A DNA stretch of 64,000 nt, taken from NCBI RefSeq assembly GCF_032362555.1, contig NC_083519.1, positions 1,753,501 to 1,817,500 of the forward strand, read 5' to 3'. Made by a program: the position numbers and the translations under genes. Within the stretch, counting starts at the first letter, position 1, and each line of letters begins with the position of its first letter. The notes under the pieces are model-generated. The model saw nothing but the letters and a program-made list of their open reading frames with translations, ran no database searches and was not told the origin of the DNA. The stretch comes from Amyelois transitella (lineage: Eukaryota; Arthropoda; Insecta; Lepidoptera; Pyralidae). Positions 3,001-57,052 of this stretch are shown one piece after another.

Positions 3001-6000
3001 ATCGGACTTACTACTCACTCGGATACCGAAAAGTTAATTCCGCTTGAATCATCATCATGAAAATGATAACAGAACACAATCATCTAACAAATATATCAAC
3101 TGAAATATGACTTACTTTTCAATGTTCCATCGAGTTAAAATTTGATTGTAGGTTGTATGTTACCATTCTATGAAAATGGCAGAAAAAAATGGTAATAAAT
3201 GGTAAAAAATATTACTATTTTCCATAAATAAAGCCCATTATGAAATTTGTTGCCACCTTCAGCCGGATTGGTTCTTTAGGTGTAATAGAGAAGACTGCAA
3301 TCCACGCGTTTCGGACCGTTAAAGTTGCAAGTAATTCGTTGCGGTTGGCCGCTCTAGTTCATCTACCCTTTGGTGTTCTTGACACAAGACAGTGCGGTTA
3401 AGTTCATTCGTGGAAGGTCGATTTGGTTAGTTTATCATCTTATTATCATTTGGAACATTAAGAACTGTTAGCAATTGCTATTTGGAGACATAAATTCGCA
3501 GTTAGACAGTCAATCTTACTTCTGAATGGACTGAACTTGCGAATGCTATCACCGAGTTCAATCAAAGACTCAATCACCATGTTTTGTGCGTATTGCCTTG
3601 CATAATTGTTCAACCTTTCTGTTAATTCTAAAAAGAAATCAAATTGCCAATATCACGTTTGATATCCCTAACAAAACCACTTTCAAGGGCAATCGATTGG
3701 AGACCGAGCCTTCCACAATTTGAATAGATAATTATTCGCTGTATCGATTTTCTTTCATATCGAGTACTGAAAGCCATGAAAGGCTAATCGATTACGTTTA
3801 TTTTAAGATAAACTGTAAAGGAAATGTAACCGTATCTATGTTGCTTATTCATTGACAAAATTAATGATAAGCTTGTAGATTTGTGTTATATTTCTCATTG
3901 TAATCTTTTCAAATGAAATTACATAGTTTTCTCATGATATTTATGTAATTTCGCGTAAATAGAAATTGCAGTCAATATATTCACGGTCTTTTCTTTTGTT
4001 TAAAAATGTCTGGTTTCAGAGGTTGTAGCTGGAACTTGGTAAGTGTTACGTTTCAAGCACCATCATTTAAAATTTGATAAAAGCATTATGATTTCGTGTA
4101 AATTGGCAAATTAGGCAATTTTTAAGATGTTAAGTTTTCGTCCACTATTCCCATGCAACAAAATTACCAGTTTAAATATGTTTTACTTTCAATAAATTGA
4201 CTGACAGATAAAATATATCAGCGTTTAATAAAAACAGTGTATCGTTTACGTTAATACAAATACAACGATACGGATGTTATTGCGTAAATCATTGTTTATA
4301 TTCAACTGTATTTCATCTTCATCTTGCAAGTATTTACACTTTAAACACACCACTGGATCAACATTCAACAGTTTTAAATATTTACCACAGCACATTTCTG
4401 CCGCGGTCGTGGGAGTCAACATTGACCCTATATCGTTATCTTTTGTATCGGTCTAATGTGGTCTTAATCCACTCATTGTCTATTGTTACCGATTTAACAC
4501 TATCCCATGCTTTGTTTCGCTCGTTAGCTATAATAATACTGTCTTTATTTCAATTGTTGTCAAAATTCTATTTGAAATACTTGATCATCTGAGTTCTGTC
4601 TGCTGACTAACACTTTTATGGCGATCATTATAATATACGAGGAGTAGGCAGTGTCTACATCTTCTTCATTGCTACGATCGCTGCATATTTATTTCGCTTC
4701 AATCACATTCATCACATCACGATACTTGTTAACGAGTAGGTATAATTGTGTTTTTTTAATTACTACAGATTTGACAGTTTACGTGTATGTTCCATCGTAG
4801 TATTGGTAAGTTTTATATCTACATTAGGTGCTGCTCTTAGAATTGATCCGTAAATTTCTTATTTGTTAGCAAATAATCAGCGTTATTACACTATAGACCT
4901 TGGCCGAAGTAATCGTGACTTAGTAAATGTCATCCAAATGTCAAATAGAGGAAACAGTATTAATACGAGTTTATTATGTAGTCTAAAGTCTAAATAAGAT
5001 TAAGATGGATCAATACAAATAATTAACGATAAAAAGTCAGGATATCTTTTCCTTAATATATTAATAAAAGGTTAAAGGAAGTCATGTCATGAAGATAAGT
5101 TTCTCTCAGATAAGTAAAACTCAGTGGAAAAGATTTTGACATATTGTGGTAAATTTTTTATCTTTTAAACACACCATATTGACATATTATTATCACAATA
5201 ATTTTTTTACAGACTTGACCCCAGATTAATCAATATCTATTTTGACAATACAATGCGATGAGCTACTTCTAGGCAGTTCTATTGTAACAAATATATTCAA
5301 TCTTTTTTTTTTAAATAGGTTCTTAAACAACACTTTCATCACAACATGTGATGCGTCAATCTTGCAAGTCTCCAATGACAAACATCGAGCACAATTCAGT
5401 ATTGTTTCATAGCCATTAGCACTTTCTCTGTGAATAACTCTAGTGAAATCGTTTCACAATAGGCTGAGCGTTTAACCGTAGGCGACCACTGCGATTTGGC
5501 CTTTGGAACTTTGCTCTTTCTGCCATTTGATTTCTAAGCTATTGAGTTCTGTGAATCATCAGGGGTCTTATTTTAATGGCCCGCTGTCTGCTTCATTTCA
5601 CGCAGTTAAGATATCGATTACGGTCGTGAATTTTTCGGTCAGGCATAGAAAGTATGCCGAATTGTTACTAGCCGCTCATAAAATCGTATCTAGTCGATTA
5701 ATATTTTTAAAGGTTTGCATCATAATTGTTATAAGTACGATCGCAATTTGTTTGCCTAAAGAGCGACATATTTAGCTTTGTTATCGGTAATTCTGTTTAG
5801 ATATCTAATCATTGTGCACGTTTCCTGATTGTACAAAAAAAGAATCATGGTATGAAATAAAATGTTTGTATGGTGCAATAGAGAGTTATTCCTGATCAGA
5901 ATACGGCAATTGATCTAAATTATGATCATTAAAGGAGATAACTTTAAAGATTGATTGCTTGCTGAAGCATGGAATCTGTCTGTACTTCAAAGTATGTTTC

Positions 6001-19200: not shown

Positions 19201-35177
<15,977 letters not shown>

Positions 35178-38045: not shown

Positions 38046-38154
38046 TGTTTTTTAATTTCACTTGTATATAATTATTATAGTAGTAAAAAGGTACAACATT
38101 GTACTAGTGTAAAAAGTGCGAAATTCTGATATTCTTCGAAATACATACATAAAT

Positions 38155-38735
38155 ATGTGCGTGTGCTCTGAGGGCCACTCTCTCGAATTTCTTTGAAAAC
38201 ATGTTCAGGATTTAGTGAAGATTCCCAAAGAATTGTGAAAGTTGGAACCAGATTTTGTGAAAATCAAATAAGGGAATTATGGGCTTTAAAGTTGGACCCT
38301 CAATCCGCACATAGAGGATTGAGGGTCCACTTGTACCGGATAAACTAAGGGCACTAAAGAAAAAGTCTTTACGCCAAAATGTAAGATAATGCCAAGCAAA
38401 AATTGCGGACACAAGAAATTACAAGAAAAACATTGTATTATTTTCCATACCTGCGTTCAAAATGGACCCTCACGTGGAAAGATTATTACGCTTATAATAA
38501 CAAAACCATTAACTTTTGGCTACTCTTTGAAACCCTATATTATAGTATATAAATTGTGACATTTTGTGAAAGAAATAACAGATCACGATATCATGTTGGT
38601 TAAAAATTATCACCTAGTTAAAATTCGGACCCTCAGTCGTCTCACTTTTTGGTTTTCGTTTTGTTTCGCTTAACGTATGATAGCTAACAAAAACACAAAA
38701 TTGTCTCCTTTTGTGGAAAAAAATGTGCTACAAAT
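38155..38735 (+). repeat. Left terminal inverted repeat of the USP-like element
   Basis: About 581 bp, nearly identical in reverse to 40107-40686. Contains five copies of the motif TGAGGGTCCA or its complement (38169, 38293, 38319, 38463, 38626; the outermost has GGGCC). Two of these form a 13-bp hairpin, GGACCCTCAATCC at 38294 against GGATTGAGGGTCC at 38316. Confidence 0.93.
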
Positions 38736-38931
38736 ACAGTACCATTGGTTAATAAAAACATCTTTTATTGTATAAGAAAATCAATTTTAATTTAGTATGA
38801 AAATAATGAAATAGGGTGACAACATTTTGCATAACTTACTAAAAATTATTACTAAAAATAGCTTTTTCAGAATGTTTTTTTTAAATGTCTAAAATTTGTA
38901 ATGGAAGCAGCGTTGGACTTCATTTACCCTT

Positions 38932-39744
38932 TTAAATTGCAGCATAGATTAATAAATGTAGAGTTATCGGTATTAATAAACTTGGTTCGATTTTTCTCTT
39001 ATTATCATCATAACATTGGAAATTACTATTTATTAAAACATGACATTTGTAATGACCAATACTATCTGAAAAGGGTGGAGGAACAAATTCAATAGCTCCG
39101 ATGAGTTCATATACCTTTGATTTTATTCTTATTGTATATGGAATTTTCAATAAGCAATGCTCACCGGTACCGTTTAAGTCAACTGTAATTATAACGTGTA
39201 ATTCGTAATTTACAGATACGTTAGAGCCACAATGAAGACATAACTTAGATGATTCGTCAAAACAAATCGCGTCCTCCAAAGACTCAATCCCAAAAACGGA
39301 TAACATATCCAAATTGAGTGGTAAGAAAGCAAATTGTCTTTCAATTGAAATCGATGTACAAAACTCGTTAACACATCGTTTTGAAAATAAGGCACTATAA
39401 AAATGATTCAAAAGAACAGTTTCATGAAAACTTGCCACATTACTTTGGCAATCAACAATAACGACGTCGTTATTTAATTTTAGTAAAGATTCTTTAAAGT
39501 AATGTTTGAGTGCTAAATCTGCTCGGATTTTGTATGGATCGTAACTTATTGTTGTACCTGCCAAACATTTAATGTACATTGAGATTAATTCAGAGCTGAA
39601 CATGTTAATCAAATCATGTATATATTGATTTTGAATATAACCGAAACACAAAAGAAAAAATGTTGAATCTAGTCCGCACGTATTTATAATTTTTGTTTGT
39701 CTATTATTAACTTCAACAGTAGAACATAAGTTACCGTTTTGCAT
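38932..39744 (-). CDS. USP-like cysteine peptidase encoded by the long-TIR element
   Basis: From the first in-frame ATG (39744) the product is 270 aa; the frame is open 47 codons further up to a stop, but with no ATG. Cys box: IINTCGLDS, Cys about residue 23, with the preceding Asn in the oxyanion place. His box near the end: IGHYKCHV, His about 231, then CYDDNKRK with Asp about 246. This order and the YELIGAIEF strand before the His box match the papain-fold ubiquitin-specific protease family (C19) or its SUMO-specific cousin USPL1. A CLHCGS knuckle lies between. It is shorter than most USPs. Predicted to cleave ubiquitin or a ubiquitin-like protein; inferred from motifs only. An upstream coding exon in 39890-40100 cannot be excluded. 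Its role in the element is unknown. Confidence 0.65.
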   Translation of the reverse strand: MQNGNLCSTVEVNNRQTKIINTCGLDSTFFLLCFGYIQNQYIHDLINMFSSELISMYIKCLAGTTISYDPYKIRADLALKHYFKESLLKLNNDVVIVDCQSNVASFHETVLLNHFYSALFSKRCVNEFCTSISIERQFAFLPLNLDMLSVFGIESLEDAICFDESSKLCLHCGSNVSVNYELHVIITVDLNGTGEHCLLKIPYTIRIKSKVYELIGAIEFVPPPFSDSIGHYKCHVLINSNFQCYDDNKRKIEPSLLIPITLHLLIYAAI

Positions 39745-40106
39745 ATGTTTAATTTGTTTAAGTATTTTAGTAGCTGTATCGTCATCTGTACCTTCTCCTC
39801 TCCAATTTTCAACTAATGAAGGCTTATCTGAAAAAACGGAGTCCTCATTAAGTACTTTAACTAACTTGGCCTTTTTTATCACCAATCACTTCCGATGCAC
39901 TCACATAAACGATATTGCTTACTAAACTAAAAGCGACTATTGTGCAACACAAAAACATCACTCAGAATTAACACTACCTACATTAAAAATTAAAGGTGGG
40001 CAAAAACAAAATTAATGTCACCCTACCCACATACATTAATAGTCAATTCAGTGTAAATTAAAATTTGTTGTTTTAACGTAATTATTATTATTAACAAATT
40101 ATATCA

Positions 40107-40686
40107 ATTTGTTGCACATTTTTTTCCACAAAAGGAGACAATTTTGTGTTTTTGTTAGCTATTATACGTTAAGCGAAACAAAACGAAAACCAAAAAGTGG
40201 ACGACTGAGGGTCCGAATTTTAACTAGGTGATAATTTTTAACCAACATGATATCGTGATCTGTTATTTCTTTCACAAAATGTCACAATTTATATACTATA
40301 ATATAGGGTTTCAAAGAGTAGCCAAAAGTTAATGGTTTTGTTATTATAAGCGTAATAATCTTTCCACGTGAGGGTCCATTTTGAACGCAGGTATGGAAAA
40401 TAATACAATGTTTTTCTTGTAATTTCTTGTGTCCGCAATTTTTGCTTGGCATTATCTTACATTTTGGCGTAAAGACTTTTTCTTTAGTGCCCTTAGTTTA
40501 TCCGGTACAAGTGGACCCTCAATCCTCTATGTGCGGATTGAGGGTCCAACTTTAAAGCCCATAATTCCCTTATTTGATTTTCACAAAATCTGGTTCCAAC
40601 TTTCACAATTCTTTGGGAATCTTCACTAAATCCTGAACATGTTTTCAAAGAAATTCGAGAGAGTGGCCCTCAGAGCACACGCACAT
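40107..40686 (-). repeat. Right terminal inverted repeat of the USP-like element
   Basis: Mirror of the left arm, with the same motif set (40206, 40369, 40512, 40539, 40664) and the same hairpin. It lies upstream of the - strand gene and must contain or adjoin that gene's promoter. Confidence 0.93.
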
Positions 40687-41122
40687 TACATAAATACATA
40701 AAAATCCCCGGAGGTATGTATGAGGTAGGTATTCTTCGAAATAATCCACTAAACCGATTTATATAAAAATTTTATTTGAATAAAGTTCGCCCAGAGGTCA
40801 AAACTAGGCTACATTTTATGCCTGAGAATTCGTGAGAAACAGGTTATTTTTAAAAGTTTGTGGTTTGTTTAATATTTTGACACATCGTTATAATAAACAA
40901 TACGAGCCTTGTGCCAGCCTATAATTAAGAGTTTGTTTACACTAAACAATAATTAAAACTTTGTTATTAAAAAGTTTACATTATGAAATGAATAACTAAC
41001 TGTTCAGTTAGCAATAATACAAAAGATAACGTTAAAACTTGATTTCGAATGATAAAAAAATGAGTTCGAAGAATTACTTATTAAGAAAAATTTGAAGCCG
41101 TTTGAAATGAAAGAAGCATCTT

Positions 41123-43518
41123 TCACTCGTTAGAGAAGACTTCTCTCAATTTTTCAGAGGAAATTACGGCCAGTGAAGCCTCTAACGGAGATGCTCCAGG
41201 AAACTTGAGCCACAGCCGCATTGCCTCCTGATAATTTGTCTTCAACAAGAGAGCCATTCGTTCCTCATCTCTGTTCTTCTTTTTAGCAATTTTTATCACC
41301 GAGTTCTCGTCAATTTTCTTTAGTTGAAGTTTTCTTAAGGCGCAAATGAGTGGCCAGAATGAGAACAGATGATCAAAGTGTTCTGAACCAGTTACCGCTG
41401 AGAGGTACAGCCTGCATTGTTCAGTGTCTTCGTTGTTCCATTTAAGGCCAAGTAGTTTGGCTTCTTCGCTCTCGATTTTGGGGAATTTCAGGCGGTTTTC
41501 GAATACGAACGCCGCGACCAACCCCGTGAGCCTGTTTTGGGTGAATTCGAAGATTTCGACAGGTACTTTCAGTCCTGTTCGCTTTACGATTAACGGTGAG
41601 CTGCAATTGAAAATAATAATTTGCATGAGAAACAAATCACATCAAATTTGTGACAGATTGAAATAGCGCCAAGGAACTTCAAGACGTGTAATATGGGACT
41701 CTACGATATTATACCTATTTTTTTTATAAAAATCTAACTTACGAGCGCAGAAAATGTACCCTTTGTTCTTTTCCGTACTTAATGTAGGTATGCAAAATTC
41801 CATGTAGATCGGAACAGTACAAACAAACAAATTTTTGCAATCATAATAAGTATGGATACATTAGGTGCCGTGTGGCGCCGGCAGAGTAGAACAGCGTCAC
41901 CCCATATCCTCCGGCTGGTATCGTAAGAGGCGATTAAGGGATTAAGCGGGAGGTGGACAGCAGCGCCTCCTACGCTGATATGATATGGTCCAGAATCAAT
42001 AGACACTGCGGTTACCAACTCACCTGCCCAGCGTGGTGACAAATCTAATACTGGCTACTTACACACGCGAAGAAAAAATATAAATAGAAATGGGACAAAT
42101 AACACAGATTGAGCTAGCCCCAAACTCTTGAGACTTGTGTTATAGGATACTAACTCGACAAAAAAGAAAGTAGGTAGGGTAATTGCGTCGGTTTGGCGTC
42201 CAGTTCTACTTTTCGTCCATTTAACTTCTAAACGCATATAAAAGGAATATAAACGCACCTATGCGCGCATGTTGCATCTTGTCACGATCCTTCATACTTA
42301 AGCAACAGTTCTAACCACCACAAAATCCAATTTGTCAAGTGAAAACTTCGAAAAAATTAAACTCAGTGGCTGGCATGTGTTCGTGTTTTGTAGACGTCAT
42401 TGCCGATCCAAAAAAAAATAGCTGGTGCAGGAACACTCCGTGGTGGGTTTTATGACTATTTCACATAGATTGAGTAATATTTTGGCATGTAAGGATATTT
42501 AAGAGTATAACTAACATTATGTTTAGGTTATTTTACAATGTTTTTGTAGTAATCTTAGTAAAAGTTTGCGGACGAATACTGACATGCCTATTTTACCAAT
42601 TATTTGGTATCCGTCCACGTGGACGGAAACTAAAACAGCAAGCTAAATATTTGGAATGTTCATTTTACTTTTTCAGACCTATAAAAAAATATGTGTTTTC
42701 TTAAGATATGAACTTTATTGGCTATTTGACAAGATATTTAGTTAACGTCCAATAATTTCTCGGTATTGCTTGTTTAAAAAAATGTTTAAATGGCATGGAC
42801 GAAAAATAAACAGCATTTTTTTGTATTAGTTTTCGTCCATAATAGTGTGGAATCTACTTCTAACACATTTGCTTGTTAATTCGTACAGGTTTTTCTAGTG
42901 GGTACTAAACTATGAAATTAATTGTTATAGATGGATTCGGGGAAATAAAAAAAGCAGGAAATCTACTGCTGAAGAATAAATATTTTTGTTGATTAAATAA
43001 AAGATTAAGAAAACAGTTTTTATTTAACATTGCACTTTTACTCTTTTTTACATACTGGACGGAAACTAGATCACACCAGAGCGAAAACCAAACTTTTTTG
43101 GACGAAAACTAGTGAAATCTGCTATTTAACATTTAATTATTTATATAAAAAACAATGTAGTTATAATGAAAAGTTTCTTAATTTTTATCAAAAATAGACT
43201 ATATGAGGTATATAAACAAATATGAGCTATTTTAATAAGGATACTTTATCATATTATTTTTACGTCTGAAAGCTAGCAACTCCGCTAATTGGACGAAAAC
43301 CAGCGCAATCACCCTACTTACTTCTTCGCGAGCCACATCCCTTTCAGCACGACGTTTTTTCCGGGTTCCACTTTCTTCATGAGGTGCCTCAACTTGTAAC
43401 CCTGGTTCAGGAACCACTCGATGTTAGCTTCCACTTGCAGGAATTCTGAACTCTTGTATACTTCGTAGAAGTCATATCCAGTGAAAAGGGCCTTATCTTC
43501 CTCTTTAACCACGCTCAT
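41123..43518 (-). CDS. Two-exon gene, 224-aa protein of unknown function
   Basis: Exon 1 is 43518-43322 (ATG in GAAAAATGAGC) and ends GAAGAA|GTAAGT. Exon 2 is 41600-41123 after TTGCAG. The phases fit (2 nt + 1 nt) and give 224 residues. Exon 1 has FYEVYKSSEFLQVEANIEW and GYKLRHLMKKVEPG; exon 2 has VEIFEFTQNRLTGLVAAFVF and a charged, Lys-rich, probably helical C-terminus. No signal peptide, membrane span or motif I recognise. Codon use looks like ordinary host coding sequence. The frame to the left of the ATG is open but lacks another Met, so upstream coding exons are possible. The 1.7-kb intron contains a transposon whose end lies 6-8 bp from the donor. I do not recognise the family. Confidence 0.65.
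41866..42050. repeat. Interspersed repeat of CCGTGTGGCGCCGGCA type
   Basis: Contains TGCCGTGTGGCGCCGGCAGA, CCTCCGGCTGGTATCGTAAG, GAGGCGATTAAGGGAT and GCCCAGCGTGGTGAC, a SINE-like repeat type I know from moths. Within the intron of the two-exon gene. Confidence 0.6.
42172..43318. mobile_element. Non-autonomous inverted-repeat element with TTTTCGTCCA motif array
   Basis: Left end GGGTAATTGCGTCGGTTTG near 42177 and, inverted, right end GGGTGATTGCGCTGGTTTT near 43315 match imperfectly over about 30 bp and are flanked by TA. The motif TTTTCGTCCA or its complement, with CCGTCC variants, recurs at least eight times (about 42210, 42611, 42619, 42796, 42830, 43056, 43098, 43289). Two copies form the 16-bp palindrome CCGTCCACGTGGACGG at 42611-42626. 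No coding capacity. It lies wholly in the intron of the two-exon gene. Tc1/mariner-like target choice (TA) is possible but not proven. Confidence 0.65.
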
Positions 43519-44634: not shown

Positions 44635-45948
44635 CATTCAGTCAGAAAAGTATCGGGAATGGATTATTTATTTATGGTTCCAAATTCAAATTTTTGTTAT
44701 TTTTGTTGTTGTTAGATTGGCACAACTGTTTTCCATTTTGGCGCGGAGTTTGAGTTGCATCTGTTGTTTACATTAAATACAGTGCTATTTTTAGTTATAT
44801 CATATCTAGTGTGTATTGCTAATTTCATAATGGATAAAAACATCGAACAAAGAGTTTGTCTTAAATTTTGCATTGCCAATGGAATATCGTGTTCGGAGTC
44901 ACTGAAAATGTTACAGAAGGCTTACGGTGAATCGACTTTATCAAAAACTCGTGCTTATGAGTGGTACAAAGCGTTCAAAAGCGGTCGAGATGTGATGGAA
45001 GATTTGCCTCGCTCTGGTAGGCCATCAACGTCTGCAACTGAAGTTAACATCGCAAAAGTGAAGGAAATAGTGACTGAAAATCCTCATTCAACTTTGAGAG
45101 AGATAGCCACCGAACTTTCTGTATCTCACGAGTTGATCCGTACCATTTTAACTAATAATTTGGGTATGAAACATGTTGCCGCTCGGCTAGTCCCAAAAGA
45201 CCTGAATTTTTTTCAAAAACTCAATCTCATGAGAGTCGCTGAGGACATGCTAGAACGAGTCAATTCCGACCCAACATTCATGAAACGCATTGTTACTGGT
45301 GACGAGACGTGGGTTTACGAGTTTGACATGCAAACTAGTCAACAAGCTTCGGAGTGGCGCCTTCCAACTGAACCGAAACCGAAAAAACCACGCCAAAGTC
45401 GAAAGTCAAAGTCATGTTGACTGTTTTCTTTGACTATCGCGGTGTTGTGCACTCGGAATTCTTGCCGGAAGGTCAAACGGTAAATAAGGAATATTATTTG
45501 AGTGTTATGCGGCGTTTAAGAGAGCAAATCCGACGAAAAAGGCCAGATTTGTGGAAAGAAAATTCTTGGATTTTGCACCATGATAATGCACCTTCGCACA
45601 AGGCCATCATTGTGAACGAATTTTTAACCAAACACTCAACAAATACCATCGAGCAACCACCATATTCACCAGATATGGCTCCAGCCGACTTTTTTCTTTT
45701 TCCTAAACTCAAATTACCACTTCGTGGCACCCGTTTTCAATCGGTAGAAGACATAAAAGAGAATTCGCGGCGAGAACTGACCTCAATTCCGGAAACAGCG
45801 TTTAAAAAATGTTTTGATGATTGGATTATTCGTTGGCGTAAGTGTATCGTTTCTAAAGGAGCATATTTTGAAGGTGATAAAATAAATTTGGATGAATAAC
45901 AAACAGTTTGTGTATTATTGATCTTTTCCCGCTACTTTCTTGACAGAG
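44635..45948 (+). mobile_element. mariner transposon, 1.31 kb, near-complete
   Basis: Imperfect terminal repeats (left CAGTCAGAAAAGTATCGGG, right complement CTGTCAAGAAAGTAGCGGG) are flanked by TA at 44633-44634 and 45949-45950. It sits inside a copy of the abundant 240-bp repeat: the repeat's GGGATATAGACGTGAT precedes and its GTATGTATG tail follows. It encodes a transposase broken by one frameshift. Confidence 0.92.
44830..45899 (+). pseudogene. mariner transposase, one frameshift
   Basis: Frame 1 (44830-45420) has the paired helix-turn-helix DNA-binding domain (SKTRAYEWYKAFKSGRD, LPRSGRPSTS, TLREIATELSVSHELIRTIL) and the first catalytic Asp in TGDETWVYEFD. Near 45390-45412 one extra base shifts the frame. 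Frame 2 (to 45899) carries the second Asp in HHDNAPSH and the third in YSPDMAPADFF, spaced as the mariner D,D34D signature, and ends close to the 3' repeat. All three catalytic Asp are kept, so decay is recent, but no full-length enzyme can be made from this copy. Confidence 0.93.
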
Positions 45949-45965
45949 TAGTATGTATGTATGAT

Positions 45966-47520
45966 GATTGTTAAACCCAGTTGAAAAGAATTTTATAGTG
46001 ATAAATCACTGTTAATAATATTTTTGACTATCCAGCAAACGTAATAATTTTCGATTGTGGCCTTGCCAGGAATCAAACCACAAGATTAAGAGGCAGATTG
46101 ATACAGGAACAAAAATATTTCAAACATACCTCCACTGCCTTTACAACCAGGAACGCAACAAAGTTTATCTGAAGACATCGTGGCACTTTTGTTGTAAAAT
46201 CTGTCTTTCACAAAAACAAACACAAACTTGGGACTCCTATCTCAAATAATAAGGTACTTTTTACAGGAGTCCTATCTCAAAATATCTGCACAACACAGTA
46301 AACACAGTCAGAGTCCAATCTCAGATGATAAAATCACACGAATATCCGGAAGAACAAAGCTCGACTCAACGGAAGATTCCAAACGACAAGTTATCAGCAC
46401 AAAACAAAGTGCAAATAGGTAAATACACAGGCACCGGTAAAAAACAGAAAGAAAGTTTATCGGTGTTCGAATCGAATTCAATCAAAACTTACTGCAAAAC
46501 TTATTTGACATAAAAAACTGTCACTCTTTTTCCAAACGAGTATTACAGTGTTGCTATTATAAATAGGCAAAAGATACCTAGAGGCTTACCACAACCTTTT
46601 ATAGAACCGTTCAAATATTAAGGCAGTTTATTAGCAGGCCTGCTCAAAACTCCTACCATGACGTCTTATAAGGTGAACGGTTTAAGCTGAATGATGAACG
46701 GTTATTTTGTCTATGGCTCAATGTGGAGATGTCAATAAAGAAACGTTCAAACCTCTAATAAAAATAATAATACCATAATAATACAATAATAATATAATTA
46801 AAGATAACAAATACTTATAAATTTAATTAAATATGAAGTTAACCTAAATTTTTCTGAATTGCAATGCATTGTTGCACGCTATAAAATACTTTTATTTGTA
46901 TAAATTAAATAAATGTTAGTTTAAAATGGTTTTGAACGAATCGGCCTGTCACATAAATTTAAAGTAGGTAGGTAGGTACCTGCTAGAATACTTGAGTGAT
47001 ACTTGAAAGTTTTCGATAACTTTAAATTCGTCCCTAAGTCATAAATAATGTTTTTAATGTGTAGAGCCGTTCTGCAACCACTTGAAATATCCTTTTTTTA
47101 CTTGTCACGGCTTTTTAAGTCGACGCGCCTTACCTCACAACAGTTTTAGAAGTTTGCCGGATCGCAGTGATTTTTAATATTCTTAACTTTTGAGGCTATT
47201 ATTTATTTTACAAGAAAACTATATAATGTCGTAAGTAGAAAGTGTTTACTTATAATACCAAGGTATGTAAACATTGATTCCTTTATTTCTTAGAGTCATC
47301 TTCATCCTACTCCCAGCTTCACCTGCTTAAATCAATAATCTTTATTTTCACTTTTGCAGTAAGTTTCGGAAATCCTTATTTAGTGAAACCTGCATATTTA
47401 AAATCTCTAGCCCTACCAGTTTGCCTGGTGTGTTGACCTACAGGCACTCAATCCATGAGTTTTCTCTTTTAATTACATTGTCTCAGTTTTAAACTATACC
47501 TAAATGTTCTTTAACTGTTT
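45966..47520. other. No gene seen between mariner and the Harbinger remains
   Basis: AT-rich; short frames at 46055-46513 do not resemble known proteins. The missing first exon of the Harbinger Myb-like gene was sought here without success. Confidence 0.5.
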
Positions 47521-47523
47521 TAG

Positions 47524-48618
47524 TACTGGGTGGACCTGAAGGCCAAAATAAAACGTAAAAATAGAACAATTCGAGAGAGCGTCAGCAGGACAGGAGGGGG
47601 CCCGCCAAGTGGGGAAGAGCTAACAGAAATTGACATAAAATTTTTAAGTATCCTTGGTGAGGAATATGGCATGGGTTTACCAGCGGTGCAGGTGAACCCA
47701 TTGCAGGTAAGATCCCTTAAATACATTAAAGCCTACAAATTATAATTAATACAAAAAATATATGTTATGTTATATATGTATTAATGAAACCATTTATTTT
47801 TAGGATGATATGAGACCTGAAGCTGGCCCCTCTGGCATTCGAGGTATTGAAGTCGAAATCCATTACAGAAGAATGGTTAGAAGTTCCTTCTAGTGTATGT
47901 ATTCAATTTCATTATTACTAGATTGAGATAAAACATTAATATTTATTGACTAAGGCATCGTGATCTCAAAATGTGTTGTCATAGGCGCCTAGTACATAAA
48001 ACTAAGTGAATAGACTATATCATAGTAGCCTAGTGATGATGAATTATATACCATACTGATTGTATTTTGTATAATAAATTTAACAATTTGATTACATTAC
48101 AAAGCCATACAGCTGAGCATGGCTCAGCCCTTTTGAGACTGTTGGCTCTGTCTACTCTCCTATGGTCATAGAATGTGATTAGATAAATGAATAATTCAAT
48201 GCTTTAAGTCTTCTTGAGACTGTAAGCTCTGTCTACTCCTATGGTATAAGAATGTGATTGTATGAATGAATATTTCAATTGTTATTTTCAGGTATCTCAA
48301 ACTGTTAGTTCTATCGAGGCAGATTCTCTACCTGCAGATGTAAAAATTACTACTGCATCATCAGATCCTTTACAAAGCCACGCAGCAGCTGTCTTTGATG
48401 AGGCTGTCGGCGTCGAAGTACCTAGTGTGGTACAGGCTGAAGCTCCGCCACAACCTAGGCGACGGCGCCGACGTGCTCATTTAACAGCTGCAGAAGCAAG
48501 GGTGCAAATAGTTGAAGCTGCACGACAGAGGGCTGCTACTGAAGCTGCAAATAGTTTAATACTTCAAGAAGCTATTTGTCTCTTCCGTGAATTAGTGGCT
48601 ATAATTAGAAGAAGGTGA
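47524..48618 (+). pseudogene. Harbinger accessory Myb/SANT-like (NAIF1-like) protein, N-terminus missing
   Basis: Three exons in phase 0, 47524-47706, 47804-47875 and 48292-48618, join to TGA. The first encodes YWVDLKAKIKRKNRTIRES and SRTGGGPPSGEELTEID, the conserved end of the Myb/MADF-like domain in Harbinger partner proteins and NAIF1. The last has a basic run (PRRRRRRAH) and an Ala/Glu-rich helix ending AIIRRR. The preceding exon with the N-terminal half of the DNA-binding domain was not found in 45966-47520. In the family this protein binds the transposase and carries it to the nucleus and to DNA ends. Confidence 0.7.
48100..48265 (+). repeat. Two diverged family A tails inside the Harbinger Myb-like gene intron
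   Basis: AAAGCCATACAGCTGAGCAT with GACTGTTGGCTCTGTCTAC, then a second similar stretch about 100 bp on with GTAAGCTCTGTCTAC, indicating a local duplication. Confidence 0.6.
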
Positions 48619-49228
48619 GCAATAATTAATTTATTCAATGTGCCAAATTCATCAAAATTGGTCCAGTAAACCATTTCAAAATGTCAATCATTTCTCTTAA
48701 TAATATTAGTATAGCTAATCCATTAATAACTTGAAGTGTTCTTTGAGATATTCACTTTTCTGCAAATTTACAGAATGTTTTGTATATATTTAAAATAAAA
48801 AAATGTTTTATTTAATTTTTATTATAATTATTAAGTTATTTTAAAATATGTCATTTTGGAATGAGCAAAATTAAAACTAGAACTACTTTGTAAAAAGAAA
48901 AAAGAAAGATGATTACTAAGCAAAATTAAATTTACAAATTAAATTATTCATGTAAAATTCTTTTACTTAACATAACATAACATTTACATTTACTTATTAT
49001 ATATATATATATACATTTACTTATTGAATAAGTACTTTTATGCTTTTACATAATAAAATATTGGTATTCAATTTAATTTAATAACAATAAAAAAACTATA
49101 TTACTTTGATGAATATTAAATGAAAAAGATTATTGTTCATAAACTACCTGCATAGCTACTTATAACTTACTCTTAAAAACGAAATATTATTGAATAAAAA
49201 TCTGCAATAAAATTCTATTTTTTGATTT

Positions 49229-50683
49229 TCAGGTACGGCGAAGAGCCCAGAGGCGTGCCACAAGATCCCGCCGTGTAGATATACCACGTTGAAGCTCAAT
49301 GTTGTGTTGCCCAGCTGGTTCATGAAGAGCTTCCACTGGTGGTTGTTGTGCAACTTCCCTTGCTTGCTCTTCTTCTGTCAACCTTACTTCAGGCAAGTTG
49401 TTTTCATTACAAATATTGTGCAATATTACACAAGCATTTGTAATGAAGCCAGCAACCTGTGGTTGATAATGCAACACCCTGTGGCACAAGAGACACCGGA
49501 AACGTGCTTTGAGAAGACCTATAGTTCTTTCTATCACATTCCTAGCCTTTACATGTTTTTGTGTATAATATGCTTCCGGTGTAGACACACCGGAAGCACA
49601 TATAACCAGACGGTTCTGCATCCAAAATAGGTGTCATCATCGTTCTTCGTTGTGAGTACCCAGAGTCACCTGGAAATAAACATTATAACTCTGTTATTTT
49701 TTTATTTTATTTGAACATTCATATTTTATATAAATTTAATGATACATTTTTATTTTAAAATTGTATCCTACAAATATTTTTGACTTTTAAAATTTTATTT
49801 CATGTTTTTAATTGGTCTAGTTTTAATTGAAAGTGTGTTAAAAATATATCTTTCAAACAATGTTGTTCATATTATTTGCTATAATAAGTTCACCAACAAA
49901 GGTTTTCTTACCTAAAAGCCATGTTGCTTCAGACCCTAAATTTTCCAAATGGTAACGTACAGGATGGTGGCTCCATATAAATGAGTCATGAAATGACCCT
50001 GGATGACTCGCATCAACACTTAGAATTTGTTGATCCGCATCACAAATCTGAAAAAAAAATAATAAGAAAAATTTGAAATTACTATGCGAACATGGGTACA
50101 ATCAATACATCCAATCACACCAGGGATACCAAATTTATTGAAAAATCTGCAGGCAAAAAAGGCATATTGTTATCAAACTTAATTATTGATATAATATAAA
50201 TAAAATTAGCTAAGTAAATATAAGCGTGCCTTAATCTTTTTAACTGACGACTTTCATAAGTCTGTGGGAATTTTATATATTTGTATAAGAGAGGATTACT
50301 ATTAAAATAATGTACTTTATGGAACTTGATTGACCTTTGCTTCTATGCTTAAATCAGTTGCTCTTTTAGAGCTTTTTGCCATTATTGGCTCCAGCTCTTC
50401 ACAAAGTTTGTGCACCAAGTCTGCGGTTAACCTAGACAAGTAAGATACGAGTAATTATGTTATCATGTTGTTGAGAAGAGAGAGATAGATCTTTCTTTAT
50501 AATAGAGCATAAGGCGGTTGATATGTGAACATTTACATACCTGTACTCCTTGATGAAAGCATTTTCATCTAAGTCAAAAGGATCATTATTTTCTCTGTTC
50601 CTTAAACGTTTCTTTTTATTTGCCATTCTGGATTCGTTGAAATCACTTTCCAAAAACTCAAACAGTTCATACTCGTCACACAT
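49229..50683 (-). pseudogene. Harbinger transposase (HARBI1-like DDE), internally deleted and frameshifted
   Basis: Exons read on -: 50683-50541 (N-terminus, ENAFIKEYR), 50431-50335 (LTADLVHKLCEELEP), about 50138-50100 (FGIPGVIGCIDCTHVRI, first Asp), 50047-49912 (ICDADQQILSVDASHPGSFH, second Asp in FHDSFIW) and 49669-49229 (GDSGY, then KARNVIERTIGLLKARF with the Glu, and LHNIC). The roughly 60-80 residue segment with the helix-turn-helix, normally between IEAK and FGIPG, is absent: only about 200 AT-rich bp lie there. The last exon also has a frame break near a perfect 11-bp palindrome (49572-49597). Not expected to be active. Confidence 0.8.
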
Positions 50684-50949
50684 CTTTGCAATAATGTTAG
50701 GGGTGTTATTAATGTTTACACAACTTACTCTTCTGTAGATTTAACTTTTTTGAAAAATTCATAGGTATTTAATCAAATTCTTATTATACACACTTACGTT
50801 ACTTTGCATGTATTTTAATGCCCTTTATCCTACAAATCCTTAGGAAACAAACACGGAACATTTGGTGAATATCTTACAAAACAACGCCAAAATGTCCAAA
50901 GAAGCTACCTGAAAGTAACTTTTGAAGAATCGCTTTATTTGACATTTGC

Positions 50950-53900
50950 GACGAGCAAGAAACTGGGCAGGTAGCGGAAGAGCCGACAAATAAGGCCAAC
51001 GGTAGCGCCCACAGTCCTAGTCAGCTGGACTACATCTCACTCACCGGGACGTCCTGGGCAGGCGGGTGAGTTAAAAGCCTAAACCCTTCAAACTCAAAAT
51101 GGAAGTACAGACACAGAAATGGCCCCGAGTTCCCAGCGGAGAGGCGACACTCAGCAAAGGCAGGAGCATGAGTTCTTGCCAGTCCAGGGGTGCTAAGAAT
51201 CCCTGGGAGTATTCAAACTGCCGAAAGAAAAACAAAAATATCGACAAAGGAACCAAACTATGTATCGGAACATACAATGCAAGGACCTTGAACACCGAAG
51301 GAAGTATGGAGGAATTGCACCAAGAACTAGACAAGATAAACTGGCATATCCTAGGTCTGTCAGAGGTCAGGCGACCGGGCGAAGAATGTTTAAAACTAAA
51401 AGCAGGACATACCCTCTACTATCGAGGCAGAGACAATGGGAAGAAAGAACACGGCGTAGGGATTTTGATACACAAAAGTCTTGAGGAACAGATAGTATCA
51501 ACAGGATCAACATCCGAAAGAGTAGTGTATGTTATTATGAGCCTATCCAAGAAAATCACCATCAAGTTGGTGCAAGTCTACGCACCGACAAGTACAGCCC
51601 CTGACGCCGAAATACACACACTGTATGAGGATATTGAAAAAGCTTTTCAAATCAGGAAAACCACATACACCTTCCTCATTGGTGATTTTAATGCCAAAGT
51701 AGGGAAAAGAGAAGAACTGTCGGAAACATTCATGGGAAGATTTGGATTTGGAGACCGTAATCCTAGAGGTAGGGTTCTTGTCAGCTTTCTTCAGTGTCAT
51801 AAATTATACCACCTAAGCTCCTATTATGAGAAAAGACCAGAAAGGAAATGGACTTGGCTTTCCCCAGGCGGACGACACAAGAACGAGATAGACTACATTT
51901 TTAGTTCTCACAGGTATATAGTACAGGATGTCAGTGTGTTGAATAAATTTAATACCCGTAGTGACCACCGTCTGGTTAGAGCCACATTATACATCAATGC
52001 AAAACTGGCACGATACACGTCCCTAAAAAAGGCAAATTCTAACAAGATCGATACTGTTAGCCTGAAAATAAACGCTGAACAATATAGAGCCCTGCTCGAA
52101 AAATCCATCCCTGACAAACCTCTCGAAGCATTGACCATAGACGAACTGAACAGCCACCTAAGTAAGACCATGATAAATGCAGCAACAGAAATAGCTAAAA
52201 GAAAACCAAATTCGCACAACAAGCTATCAGAGGAAACTAAAGCGCTACTACAAAAAAGAAGGGAAATGGTCAGGAATAGCAATAAGTACAAAGACCTGTT
52301 CAAACTTGTACGATCAAAAGTGGAGAAAGACATCAGGGAGTACAAGGAAAGGAAAGTAAGGGCCATAATAGAACGACACAGGGGACCAAAAGTGTTTAGG
52401 AAGCAACTCGAGCCCGGCTGCCAAGTTATCGCCAAACTAAAAACCAAAGATGGGAACTTGATTGTGGACAGATTGCAAGTGCTTAAGGTGATAGAACACT
52501 ACTACTCCAACCTCTACGCTCAAAAAACTAAAGAACCAGACCACACCAACCGCTTAACTATTAGAAATGTAGGATCAGAAGATATTCCTGAAATAACGAA
52601 AGAGGAAGTAATGTTTGCTCTTTCCAAACTTAAAAATGGAAAAGCGAGTGGCGAAGACGGGATACTGCCCGAAATGCTCAAGGAAGGCGGAGAAAAACTC
52701 TTGGATGCCCTAATAGTTCTCTTCAACAGATGCCTACATTCAGGAGATCTACCGGAAGATTGGAATAGCGCTGTGGTAATTATACTGTACAAGAAAGGAT
52801 GCAAGACGGACTTGAATAATTATAGACCCATAAGTCTGCTATCACAAACCTACAAGCTCTTCTCCAAGATTATCACCACCAGGATAACACCTAAACTGGA
52901 CTTCTACCAACCAATCGAGCAAGCAGGCTTTAGAGCGGGATACAGCACAATAGAGCACATTCTGGCAATGAGAGTCCTCATCGAGAAAACTACCGAGTAT
53001 CAAATGCCACTGTGGTTGGCATTCATTGACTACAAAAAGGCGTTCGACAGCGTGGAAACTTGGGCCGTACATAACTCGCTAAGGAACGCAAGAGTTGATC
53101 ATAGATACAACCAGCTGATCGCCAGAGTTTACCAAAACGCTAAAATGAAAGTGTCAATACCGCAGATGACAAACCCTATTAACATCAAAAGGGGAGTAAG
53201 ACAGGGGATAACCTATCGCCTAAATTGTTTACGCTGGTTGTCGAGGACGTATTTAAAAAACTGAATTGGCAAAAACGAGGTATTTCCATATCAGGTGCAC
53301 GTTTAACCAACCTTCGATTCGCGGACGACATAGTCTTATTTGCTGACAACCCTACTGAACTACAAGAGATGATCGAGGACCTACACAACACATCATTACG
53401 AGTAGGACTGGAGATGAACCTCGATAAGACCAAAGTTATGACATCCGAACAACAAAACAACATCAGGATTGAAGTAGGAGGGACAGAAATTGAGCAAGTC
53501 CAAAAGTATGTGTACTTGGGTCAAGAAATTAAAATAGGCAAAGAGAACCAGTGTAACGAAATCGACAGACGAATAAGACTGGGGTGGGCAGCCTACTCCA
53601 AGCTTGAATATGTTTTTAACATGAACCTGACGTCACAACAAAAAGCCCAAATTTTCGACCAGTGCATACTACCCGTCCTGACATATGGCGCCGAAACCTG
53701 GGTGACTACCCAAGAAGTGATACACAAGCTTGGGGTGGCACAAAGGCATATGGAGCGGAAAATTGTAGGCGTCTGTCTGAAAGACCGTGTGACCAATAAG
53801 GACCTAAGACGGCGCAGCAAAGTCACGGATGTCGGCAGAAGAGTTGCGAAGCTCAAGTGGGAGTGGGCTGGTCATATTGCCAGGAAGTCTGAATCTTGGT

Positions 53901-54110
53901 GCAAAAGATTGCTAGACTGGAGACCTTGGGACCAAAAGCGACCCAGGGGAAGGCCACAAATGAGATGGAAAGACGACATCAAGCAGGTGGCGGGCAGCAA
54001 TTGGACTCTTACTGCCCAAAATAGAGAAGAATGGAAGGAGATGAAGGAGGCCTACATCAGAATGCTGATAGAAGAAGGCTAAGAAGAAGAAGAAGAAGAT
54101 ATAAAATACA
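50950..54110 (+). mobile_element. RTE-class LINE, nearly full length
   Basis: A short 5' leader (about 50950-51098), one APE-RT coding region and a very short 3' end closing in (GAA)n at about 54080-54100 are typical of the RTE clade. It joins directly to the Harbinger remains on the left. No clear target duplication was found, so the exact 5' edge is uncertain. Confidence 0.85.
51099..54082 (+). pseudogene. RTE LINE endonuclease-reverse transcriptase, one frameshift
   Basis: Frame 1 from ATG 51099 holds an AP endonuclease (GTYNARTL, LSEVRRPG, QVYAPTS, GDFNAKVG, SDHRLV) and the first RT blocks (NYRPISLLS, QAGFRAGYSTIEHIL, FIDYKKAFDSV, RGVRQG). One base is missing near 53207-53215, right after RGVRQG. 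The rest continues in another frame (53225-54082) with the catalytic FADDIVLFAD box, the thumb and a GKR/RPRGRPQMRWKDDI C-terminus common to RTE proteins. In the family the endonuclease nicks target DNA and the RT copies the RNA at the nick. Except for this lesion it seems intact. Confidence 0.92.
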
Positions 54111-54170
54111 AAAGAAAAATAATCATTAAAGTAGGTACTTGAAGGGAAAAATAACGAAAAATACGTGGGG

Positions 54171-57052
54171 CAATGTTACCTTAAAAAAGACCAAAGTTAC
54201 CCGAGTTCACCGTAATCGTTTTTGTTTCATAATATTAAACTAGGTAATCTTAAAGTAGGTATGAGATCAATCAAAACTGAGATACTTTTTAGTATAAACT
54301 TCACTAGGTAGGTTTTATGTTATACAATTATAAAACAAAATTTAAATGCTTTTCCTAAATCAACAAAGTAAGTAGCTAACAAAAATGTCAAAAAATAATA
54401 GAATCAACAAAAAATATATAGTTAAACAAAAACAAAATCTTACATTTACTTACTTATTAACAGTAAACAAAAAAAATATTTCTTCATTGCATAAAGACAG
54501 ATAAAAATAGATATAATACAGAAAAGACAAAGCAACGGCGTACATATCCCATGAAGGGATCTCTTCCAGTCATCCGGCAAGATAAGAATGAATACAAAAC
54601 TCAAGGGTGAAACAAATGCAACAAAACTACAACAATTAGGAAAGAAAACAAATAAATAAATACAAAATATATCTATTAATACTTAAAATAGTTACTTAAA
54701 TGAAAATCTACCTATAATCAATAAAATACACATCAAAATGAGTTTTGTTAATTTAGTTTAAAGTAGGTCTAAATTTTTATTTAAAAATATTATCTCGTCT
54801 AGTCTTTTTGCTGCCAGTCTATTTCGTCTTTGGTTACATAGCATACCAGCCTTAGAAAAGACGCGTTCGGAAGGTACGGACGTGGCAGGTATGCACAGAT
54901 ACTTGATAGCTAACTGTGATAAAATTGGATAAGTTTTACAATGTGTTTCCCAAAAACGTAAAGGGTCCTCTTTTCGGTTAATTAAAGGCATTTCTAAATA
55001 CTGTTTTATTTGTAAGGTAGCTGAAGAAGTAGGTGTCGTCGATGAGTTTTGTGATAATGCTTTTTGGTCAAAGAATTTCCACAGATCATCCTCATCATTG
55101 TTTGATTCGGCTCCGATTGATACATGGTGCTCAACAGTTTCCGCGATCGAATTTGAGTTTCCAATTTGATTTGCTAGTTGTTCAGTGAGCCATTTTTCAA
55201 CGTTTGCCGCATTTTCTGGTAATCCAAACCCAGTTTTTTTGAATCTTGGATCCAAAAGGGTACTAAGAGCTATTGATTTATGAGTTTCAGAGTTACCTAG
55301 TCTTCTGCCCAAAACTTCTAAAAGGCTGTTTTTTAAACTAGTTCCGATGTCAGTTGTCGAATTTTTGGCTAACAATAGAAATTGCAATCCTCTTACTAAA
55401 GGAATTACTCTCGACAGAGTAGGATAGTTTTCGCCTGACAATTCTTCAGTAATTTTGTGGACAGGTTTAAGAATCGGTATGATGTCATCTATTATTGCCC
55501 ATTCACTGGCTTCGAGATTTTCGGGTGCATTTATTAATGAAATTAGTGACGCAGTTAGGGGAATTTTTACTTCTGAAAATCGTTCTATCATAAACAAAAT
55601 GGAATTCCAACGAGTAGGCATGTCTTTTTTAAGTTTTAATATTGGTAATCCCATTTGCTCCTGCGTTTCTTTTAATTTGTAGCTTGCGACGTTGCTATGT
55701 TTGAAATGAGCGTGTAATGCACGACATTTATTTAATACAGTTTGGAGTTCCGTGAATTTAGTGATGGATTCCTGGACAGACAGATTCAGAGTGTGTGCTA
55801 CGCAAGGGTGATGAATTTTTCTTAAATGATCGGTAACTGCTTTTTTCACATTACTTGCATTATCTGTCACGACCACCGAGATTTTGCTGAGAGATCCGGG
55901 GAATTTGGCTAATATTTTTAATATAGCTTCCCCAATGTTTATAGCAGTGTGATTGACAGTAACTTCTTCAGTCCCGAGAACACAGCTTTTTAATTCGTAT
56001 TCCCAGATGAAATGGCCGGTGATTGTTATGTAACTCTTATTGCTGTCAGAAGTCCACATATCGCTAGTTATAGACAAGTGGGAGATATTGTCTATCGTGT
56101 TACATAGAGTTTTATTATTTTTTTGGTGTTCATTAGGCAACAACTTTTCTGAAACAGTCTTTCTACAAGGCAGTTCATAATTCGGCTGGAGCATTTTGAC
56201 AAACTCTTTAAAACCTTTGTTTTCTACGATAGACAAAGGCTGATAGTCAGTAGCTATCATCCGGATTAAGCCCTTATCAAAAACTTCTCTATCTACCTTG
56301 CTACTCGTCGCCGCGTACAATCTCAATTGTGGCGCTCTTTTTGCTGCTGGTGGGGCTGGTGGCGAGGACACATTCGGTGTTTCCGAGTCTAAAGTAGCTG
56401 ACTGCCGGGGTGCGGGAGCGCTTACTGGAGCTGTATTTTCTTGCGGTCTAATTTCCTGTTCATACTCGGCCAGTTGAATCGGATGTTTTCTTTTTAAGTG
56501 ATCCTTTAAATTAGTTGTATTTTTATGGTATATTACAGAATGCGAACACAGTTTACACTTAACTTTTTCAATGTACCCTTCTTTAATTTTATCAAAAAAT
56601 TCCCACACTAACGATTTTTTAGGCATTGTTTTAAGTGGTCTTAGCCCACGCGCGTGACCTTCGCTCTTAAACAATAAACGGACTAACGAAATATAATAAT
56701 ATTTACTTTACGTTCAAAGTTCAAAATGAAACGGTAGGCGCGGGGTGCGCAGGGATGGATGAGTGGATAGGTAAAATACAATCGGCTGTTTCAATTTCAA
56801 CAGCTTATAAATGAAGCATTTTACACTACGTAATAAATCAAAAATAATAACAAAAACAATATTTATTAACACTCTTTTAACATATTCTTTTGTTTCATTA
56901 AAATACTCTTACGTAAAACAAATTTGACTTCTATTTTTTAAATTTTCGCCGGATGTTCTTATTTTCACGATAATCAATCAGAACAAAGTATTTATCAACC
57001 AATCAGAATAAAATATCCTGTTTCCTGTCAATTCAATAGGGTTGTAACACTG
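54171..57052 (-). mobile_element. hAT transposon around an intact transposase (limits tentative)
   Basis: The right end may be the inverted CAGTGTTACAACCC at 57039-57052. The best left partner is CAATGTTACC at 54171, a weak match, and flanks do not give a convincing 8-bp duplication. Transposase presence is certain, the borders are not. Confidence 0.4.
54758..56626 (-). CDS. hAT transposase with BED zinc finger, intact 622-aa frame
   Basis: The ATG at 56626 (MPKKSLVWEFFDKIKEG) is preferred; the frame is open 16 codons further without another ATG. Order: BED finger (CKLC .. HLKRKH, residues about 5-55), Pro/Ala linker, catalytic part with ITSDMWTS and VVTDNASNV (two Asp), CVAHTLNLSVQ, and the C-terminal dimerisation region LCIPATSVPSERVFSKAG. 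Length and order are those of full ZBED/hAT transposases, and no stop or frameshift is seen. The family cuts and pastes its element with hairpin flanks. This copy could be active or recently so; domestication is a less likely alternative. The intact frame contrasts with the broken LINE, mariner and Harbinger around it. Confidence 0.93.
   Translation of the reverse strand: MPKKSLVWEFFDKIKEGYIEKVKCKLCSHSVIYHKNTTNLKDHLKRKHPIQLAEYEQEIRPQENTAPVSAPAPRQSATLDSETPNVSSPPAPPAAKRAPQLRLYAATSSKVDREVFDKGLIRMIATDYQPLSIVENKGFKEFVKMLQPNYELPCRKTVSEKLLPNEHQKNNKTLCNTIDNISHLSITSDMWTSDSNKSYITITGHFIWEYELKSCVLGTEEVTVNHTAINIGEAILKILAKFPGSLSKISVVVTDNASNVKKAVTDHLRKIHHPCVAHTLNLSVQESITKFTELQTVLNKCRALHAHFKHSNVASYKLKETQEQMGLPILKLKKDMPTRWNSILFMIERFSEVKIPLTASLISLINAPENLEASEWAIIDDIIPILKPVHKITEELSGENYPTLSRVIPLVRGLQFLLLAKNSTTDIGTSLKNSLLEVLGRRLGNSETHKSIALSTLLDPRFKKTGFGLPENAANVEKWLTEQLANQIGNSNSIAETVEHHVSIGAESNNDEDDLWKFFDQKALSQNSSTTPTSSATLQIKQYLEMPLINRKEDPLRFWETHCKTYPILSQLAIKYLCIPATSVPSERVFSKAGMLCNQRRNRLAAKRLDEIIFLNKNLDLL

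Follow-up and report, generated by a model that had tools for sequence, protein, structure and literature searches.

A 64,000-nucleotide stretch of the Amyelois transitella genome (contig NC_083519.1, positions 1,753,501 to 1,817,500 of the forward strand; hereafter the window) carries a 2,532-bp transposon with one long minus-strand frame, which encodes a peptidase resembling ubiquitin-specific proteases (USPs). This element is very probably a non-autonomous internal-deletion derivative of a cut-and-paste transposon of the Mutator-like element (MULE)/IS256 type, from a lineage in which the transposase is fused to a USP domain. An original prediction, made from the window alone, had considered the peptidase as lone cargo or possibly a captured host gene; instead, it belongs to the transposase protein of the element itself, as its C-terminal domain, and was left behind by an internal deletion. 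Sequence comparisons establish the fusion, a deletion at a 4-bp microhomology, and the element ends and target-site duplications; they also show that both active sites are conserved and that sister families have moved recently.

The non-coding features of the element, whose ends are shared by two longer copies in the same genome (L009 and L010), are as follows (positions are those of the window):

38146..38154, no strand: left target-site duplication TACATAAAT, an exact match to the right copy
38155..38735, plus strand: left terminal inverted repeat, beginning 5'-ATGTGCGTGTGCTCTGAGGG..., with the same ends on L009 and L010
38293..38329, no strand: palindromic pair of the motif GGACCCTCA, identified by motif count against expectation
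38464 and 38627: other left-arm copies of GGACCCTCA, from the motif count
38736..38931, minus strand: 3' non-coding interior with poly(A)-like signals AATAAA (38769) and ATTAAA (38791) on the minus strand
39876..39879, no strand: deletion junction with 4-bp microhomology TTAT, 2.5 kb missing compared to L010 and 3.5 kb compared to L009
39886..40106, minus strand: residual 5' non-coding interior, containing five of the seven AUGs between the right arm and 39744
40107..40686, minus strand: right terminal inverted repeat, pairing with the left arm
40206, 40369, 40513 and 40539: right-arm mirror copies of GGACCCTCA, from the motif count
40687..40695, no strand: right target-site duplication TACATAAAT, an exact match to the left copy

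The near-identical arms of about 580 bp and the exact 9-bp duplication of the original prediction were both recovered, and its assignment to the cut-and-paste type was correct. The arms (581 and 580 bp) are 99.5% identical over 581 columns (38155-38735 vs 40107-40686), and all three differences fall within the inner 94 columns, leaving the outer 487 bp without any mismatch. On the plus strand of the window, TACATAAAT occurs at the two duplication sites only; the minus strand holds one extra copy, at 3939. The subterminal motif GGACCCTCA is present eight times in the window, as compared to 0.17 expected, with four copies per arm and none outside the arms. As sister families B, C and D (described below) also have repeated short words of their own, each in the one arm inspected, these arm words, including GGACCCTCA, are candidate transposase-binding sites.

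The absence of a transposase from the element, also predicted, was confirmed by a tblastn search with 90 collected relatives (E up to 0.01), which found no transposase sequence inside it. Longer relatives that share the arms and bear a transposase, which the prediction had suggested looking for, were found in the organism's own assembly (327 Mb, 33 contigs, with the window on contig C15; match counts in this assembly are lower bounds). The arm of this family, family A, is paired at three places, i.e., the window, C32 (L009, 6,008 bp) and C6 (L010, 5,059 bp), so that at least three two-armed copies exist, the window copy among them; a single arm lies on C27 (L011, element bases 1-844 only) and there are six weaker matches besides. 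Bases 1-1725 and 1722-2532 of the window element match L009 and L010, and the intervening stretch, which includes the transposase and the start codon of its protein, is gone. These longer parent copies led us to reject a lone peptidase as the normal state of the family. Both are broken: in L009 the transposase is split in two frames (residues 1-303 and 304-1024, P0041 numbering) and a nested long interspersed nuclear element (LINE)-like reverse transcriptase frame is read at 4319-5278, while L010 has frames of 240, 396 and 446 amino acids (aa).

Over approximately 2,530 columns, the window copy differs from L009 by 4 mismatches (0.16%) and from L010 by 7 (0.28%), with small gaps besides. Peptidase changes number one synonymous and one nonsynonymous as compared to L009, and none and three, respectively, as compared to L010; as these changes are so few, selection on the window peptidase cannot be read from them. 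Because the window copy holds the peptidase only, has seven AUGs outside the right arm but upstream of the first AUG of its frame at 39744 (eight more lie within the arm) and is nearly identical to L009 and L010, it appears to be a young deletion derivative; a family-A source, of which no intact copy was seen, probably moved it in trans. Its peptidase frame is most likely a passive remnant.

The fusion itself is seen in sister families B, C and D of the same genome, which share the transposase-peptidase layout and have both active sites (one copy read per family), with between-family protein identities of 29-41%. Family B has four copies of 4,212 bp with a single frame of 1,031 aa, and family C six copies of 5,018 bp with a single frame of 1,060 aa; family D comprises an intact copy, L032 (5,634 bp, single frame of 1,044 aa), and a broken one, L033, whose arms pair over 102 and 199 bp and whose left side is interrupted (frame lengths from the first Met). 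Arm lengths are 581 bp in family A, 354-355 bp in B, 664-665 bp in C and 304 bp in D (L032), and the full-length family C arms found (at least 12) are all part of the six full-length copies. Coding frames are identical in 15 of 15 family C pairs and differ by 0-2 nucleotides per pair in family B, where all changes are nonsynonymous; these changes are too few for a signal of within-family selection. Exact duplications flank 13 of 15 elements (8 bp in six, 9 bp in seven). The remaining two are an adjacent pair of family C copies (C32:5641093-5651135), L029 with no duplication and L030 with one of 7 bp, placed head to tail with 7 bases between them and a common outer 9-bp duplication, CACGGAGAC; either one site was hit twice or the pair is a tandem arrangement. 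Movement of the sister families was recent, and they may still be mobile.

Several traits place these elements with Mutator/MULE. The transposase is a DDE RNase-H protein of the IS256 type with a DxxH motif, long terminal inverted repeats are present in families A-D, and the 8- or 9-bp duplications fall in the 8-11-bp range typical of the superfamily. The Pfam MULE model (PF10551) gave one match among 32 members, below its cut-off (E = 0.006; 17.4 bits vs 27.6). When P0041, P0047 and four frames from the same genome were checked for the PHD finger of Rehavkus elements, none matched a Pfam zinc finger, and no tandem repeat at score 50, as would represent a Rehavkus-type minisatellite ahead of the 3' arm, was found in the window, L022 or L026 elements. 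Among distant relatives, P0024 and P0027 have a SCAND3-like zinc finger (Znf_SCAND3) between transposase and peptidase, and P0026 and P0028-P0031 have one by precomputed PF23663. Viral contigs yielded no relative and no exact terminal motif, and a genome-contig collection yielded none; in both collections, entries from the genome to which the window belongs may be excluded.

The coding features of the window element are the following:

38932..39885, minus strand: open frame of 317 codons plus stop, the USP-like peptidase domain, which in the parent forms the C-terminal part of the transposase protein
39004..39006, minus strand: Asp codon, second D of CYDDN, conserved in 32 of 32 readable alignment rows
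39052..39054, minus strand: catalytic His codon, box IGHYKCH, His in 33 of 33 rows
39229..39375, minus strand: four zinc-ligand-like cysteines of the USP finger region, in pairs C170/C175 and C215/C218, conserved in 32 of 32, 33 of 33, 33 of 33 and 33 of 33 rows
39676..39678, minus strand: catalytic Cys codon, box NTCGLDS, Cys in 32 of 32 readable rows

When the interior was simulated 2,000 times with a Markov model, no frame exceeded 178 codons, as compared to 317 in the element. The first AUG of the frame, at 39744, yields the predicted single gene of 270 aa, with the NTCGLDS and IGHYKCHV...CYDDNK boxes as quoted in the original prediction; in our alignments the window row opens with M, though the codon there is not AUG. 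An upstream out-of-frame AUG-started frame at 39958 (33 aa, hydrophobic) was dismissed as chance. Alignment A3, on which the row counts are based, comprises the window and 32 of the 90 collected proteins, picked for spanning the peptidase (alignment A4 likewise holds 32 of the 90). The first D of CYDDN (39007-39009) is conserved in 31 of 32 rows, and the second is taken as the more probable catalytic Asp.

USPs are characterized by a Cys box, a His box and an Asp, in that order, and by two zinc cysteine pairs, all of which are present in the alignment. The structure model of the domain shows a USP (papain-like) fold and the PDB fold matches listed are of USP type, so the USP-fold peptidase that had been predicted held under a fold check, and its catalytic residues proved conserved rather than random. 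In a viral fold library, USPs encoded by viruses ranked at the top (best E = 7e-11); matches further down (E = 1e-6 to 6e-5), to fragments of coronavirus ORF1a and to other polyproteins, are read as reflecting the wider papain-like fold. HMMER aligned both the NTC and the GHY box to USP2, and the GHY box to USP5 as well. In Pfam, the window protein had no match and the best relatives reached 21.4 bits for UCH (cut-off 23.9). Ulp1 (C48) peptidases have the active-site order His-Asp-Cys; with the order Cys, His, Asp found here, membership in this family was rejected. A VTD deubiquitinase was also rejected, as there is no Asp-x-His site, the window reading S-I-G-H at the His and the Asp following the His.

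Protein searches of other genomes returned seven relatives, two of them with a transposase tail before the peptidase, and then 26 and 63 (overlapping sets); the sources that carry a name comprise moths (Diatraea, Chilo), a butterfly (Pieris) and a firefly (Photinus), and fused relatives span 1,005-1,174 aa. The window domain lies inside an eight-row clade (support 100/100) together with five fused proteins. For P0038, P0042 and P0045 (1,021-1,056 aa) and for P0005, which has a transposase tail, the label "alone" in this tree denotes no more than a missed motif. Identities in the transposase core and in the peptidase (medians 32% and 26%) were correlated across 14 proteins and 91 pairs (r = 0.94; 0 of 5,000 permutations, which test solely whether the two distances run together): both domains have travelled together. 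Fifteen proteins had passed the motif filters, and a probably empty slice for P0039 removed 14 pairs. A peptidase match was found in 52 of the 90 collected proteins and none in 38, including P0069, though P0069 aligns in A3. Many of these peptidase-less relatives stop before the domain and are fragments or perhaps intron-split, which is no proof of loss. UniRef labels P0058 "USP domain-containing protein" and P0018 "Transposase".

As MULEs pick up gene pieces (PMC6446971, PMC2528002, in the sections available) and USP is a host fold, the peptidase could be a host USP gene captured between transposon arms, as in Pack-MULEs. We rejected this explanation, which we consider scarcely credible, because the parents and the three sister families have the domain joined in frame with the transposase; relatives elsewhere show the same fusion, the window domain nests among fused domains, and of 18 places matching the peptidase in the genome the 15 examined are all transposon copies (the other three are short or broken), so the host orthologue that the prediction had considered did not appear. 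Capture long ago, at the base of the lineage, is still conceivable. That the window copy works as a peptidase-only element, kept by selection for a solo USP acting in trans on other copies, would fit its intact frame with all catalytic and zinc residues, the whole domain having survived because the break falls within the linker, and database relatives P0001, P0002 and P0009 are, as entries, peptidase-only frames. The AUGs in and after the right arm, the scarcity of changes compared to L009 and L010, and the counts of copies (the window is one of three two-armed family A copies found, and the at least 12 family C arms all sit in full-length copies) weigh against this scenario, which we regard as quite improbable.

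With regard to the activity of the domain, its divergent sequence, the failure of the window protein to match Pfam and the weak UCH matches in 5 of 33 rows could mean that it no longer cleaves and serves to bind ubiquitin or a ubiquitin-like protein, as a targeting or dimerization part. Binding alone would need none of the Cys, His and Asp residues conserved in all readable rows; we find this reading rather improbable, and this conservation suggests that the domain is an enzyme. It could be a SUMO peptidase (USPL1-like, C98) that strips SUMO to evade SUMO-dependent silencing, a tentative proposal that we hold to be possible, if on the unlikely side. The Pfam C98 model matched P0059 only among the 33 rows, and ubiquitin is the likelier target.

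Under the interpretation we prefer, intact members of the lineage make one protein of approximately 1,030-1,060 aa, with a putative WRKY-like zinc DNA-binding part, the DDE RNase-H transposase and the C-terminal USP-type cysteine peptidase. This protein would bind the arms, with GGACCCTCA as candidate site, and would excise and insert the element with 8-9-bp staggered cuts; the short copy would be moved in trans by the transposase. The USP domain would act on the transposase itself or on donor-site proteins, stripping them of ubiquitin or a ubiquitin-like modifier and thereby stabilizing the complex or blunting silencing, a step to which we give about an even chance. The fuller scenario, in which the fused USP is active and clears the transpososome or silencing complexes of ubiquitin or SUMO, the lineage thereby keeps moving in the germ line and solo copies supply the activity in trans, is unlikely.

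The element lies approximately 3 kb downstream of a Fem-1 homologue C-like exon (34809-35177, plus strand; PDB 8pql, E = 5e-10), with an ankyrin exon at 27379-27750; a Fem-1 tail pattern had no match in the window. On its other side, 0.4 kb away, a 172-codon frame (41123-41641, minus strand) resembles bunyavirus nucleoprotein (Pfam E = 1.8e-4, below cut-off; PDB nucleoproteins, E = 2e-4) and is probably an endogenous viral remnant. The stretch 44716-56707 is transposon-rich, with a Mariner (44716-45899), a DDE_Tnp_4 fragment (49229-49633), a LINE with endonuclease and reverse transcriptase in two frames (51075-54082) and a hAT with a BED finger (54758-56707).

Comparable peptidases have been published, in the accessible sections of the papers cited here, as Ulp1 in MULEs and CACTA, OTU or Ulp1 in Ginger1, and OTU or VTD in Helitrons (PMC2836005, PMC9741609, PMC2528002). 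Ulp1 (C48) MULEs, i.e., Kaonashi and relatives in plants, also found in hydra and lancelet (PMC2836005, PMC2528002), likewise combine a MULE-type transposon with a peptidase domain for a ubiquitin-like protein, whereas here the peptidase has a USP (C19/C98-like) fold and forms the C-terminus of a single frame shared with the transposase, in hosts that, where named, are insects; Arabidopsis Kaonashi has Ulp1 in reverse orientation and lacks terminal repeats (PMC2836005, PMC2528002). Ginger1 also has a C-terminal deubiquitinase- or deSUMOylase-type domain (OTU or Ulp1) fused to a DDE transposase, but one that is Gypsy-integrase-like, as compared to IS256-like with USP here (PMC2836005). The nearest published precedent found, Trichomonas vaginalis XP_001314237.1, joins DDE Transposase_11 to Peptidase C19, but represents another transposase family in a protist, one protein mentioned in passing (PMC2836005). 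Helitrons encode VTD and OTU deubiquitinases, the VTDs shown to be active, but are rolling-circle elements, and the VTD Asp-x-His site is absent here (PMC9741609). Rehavkus, an arthropod and annelid MULE relative, shares 9-bp duplications and a single long frame, but its arms are described as 26-400 bp long and it has both a PHD finger and a minisatellite, with no peptidase listed in the text available (PMC6446971). The words protease, peptidase, ubiquitin and USP are absent from the available main text of two MULE surveys, PMC6446971 among them, and no MULE-type transposase with a USP domain was found described in the literature searched, in its accessible text and with Repbase and supplements outside it (PMC6446971, PMC2836005, PMC13359780, PMC10218199, PMC9741609, PMC2528002).

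Overall, peptidases that act on ubiquitin or its relatives (Ulp1, OTU, VTD) have been acquired by several unrelated transposon classes, and the MULE-fused USP represents a further fold. With six copies having identical coding frames in one genome, copies are young enough to be functional, and why transposons need enzymes of this kind, a long-standing question, is now testable in an animal.
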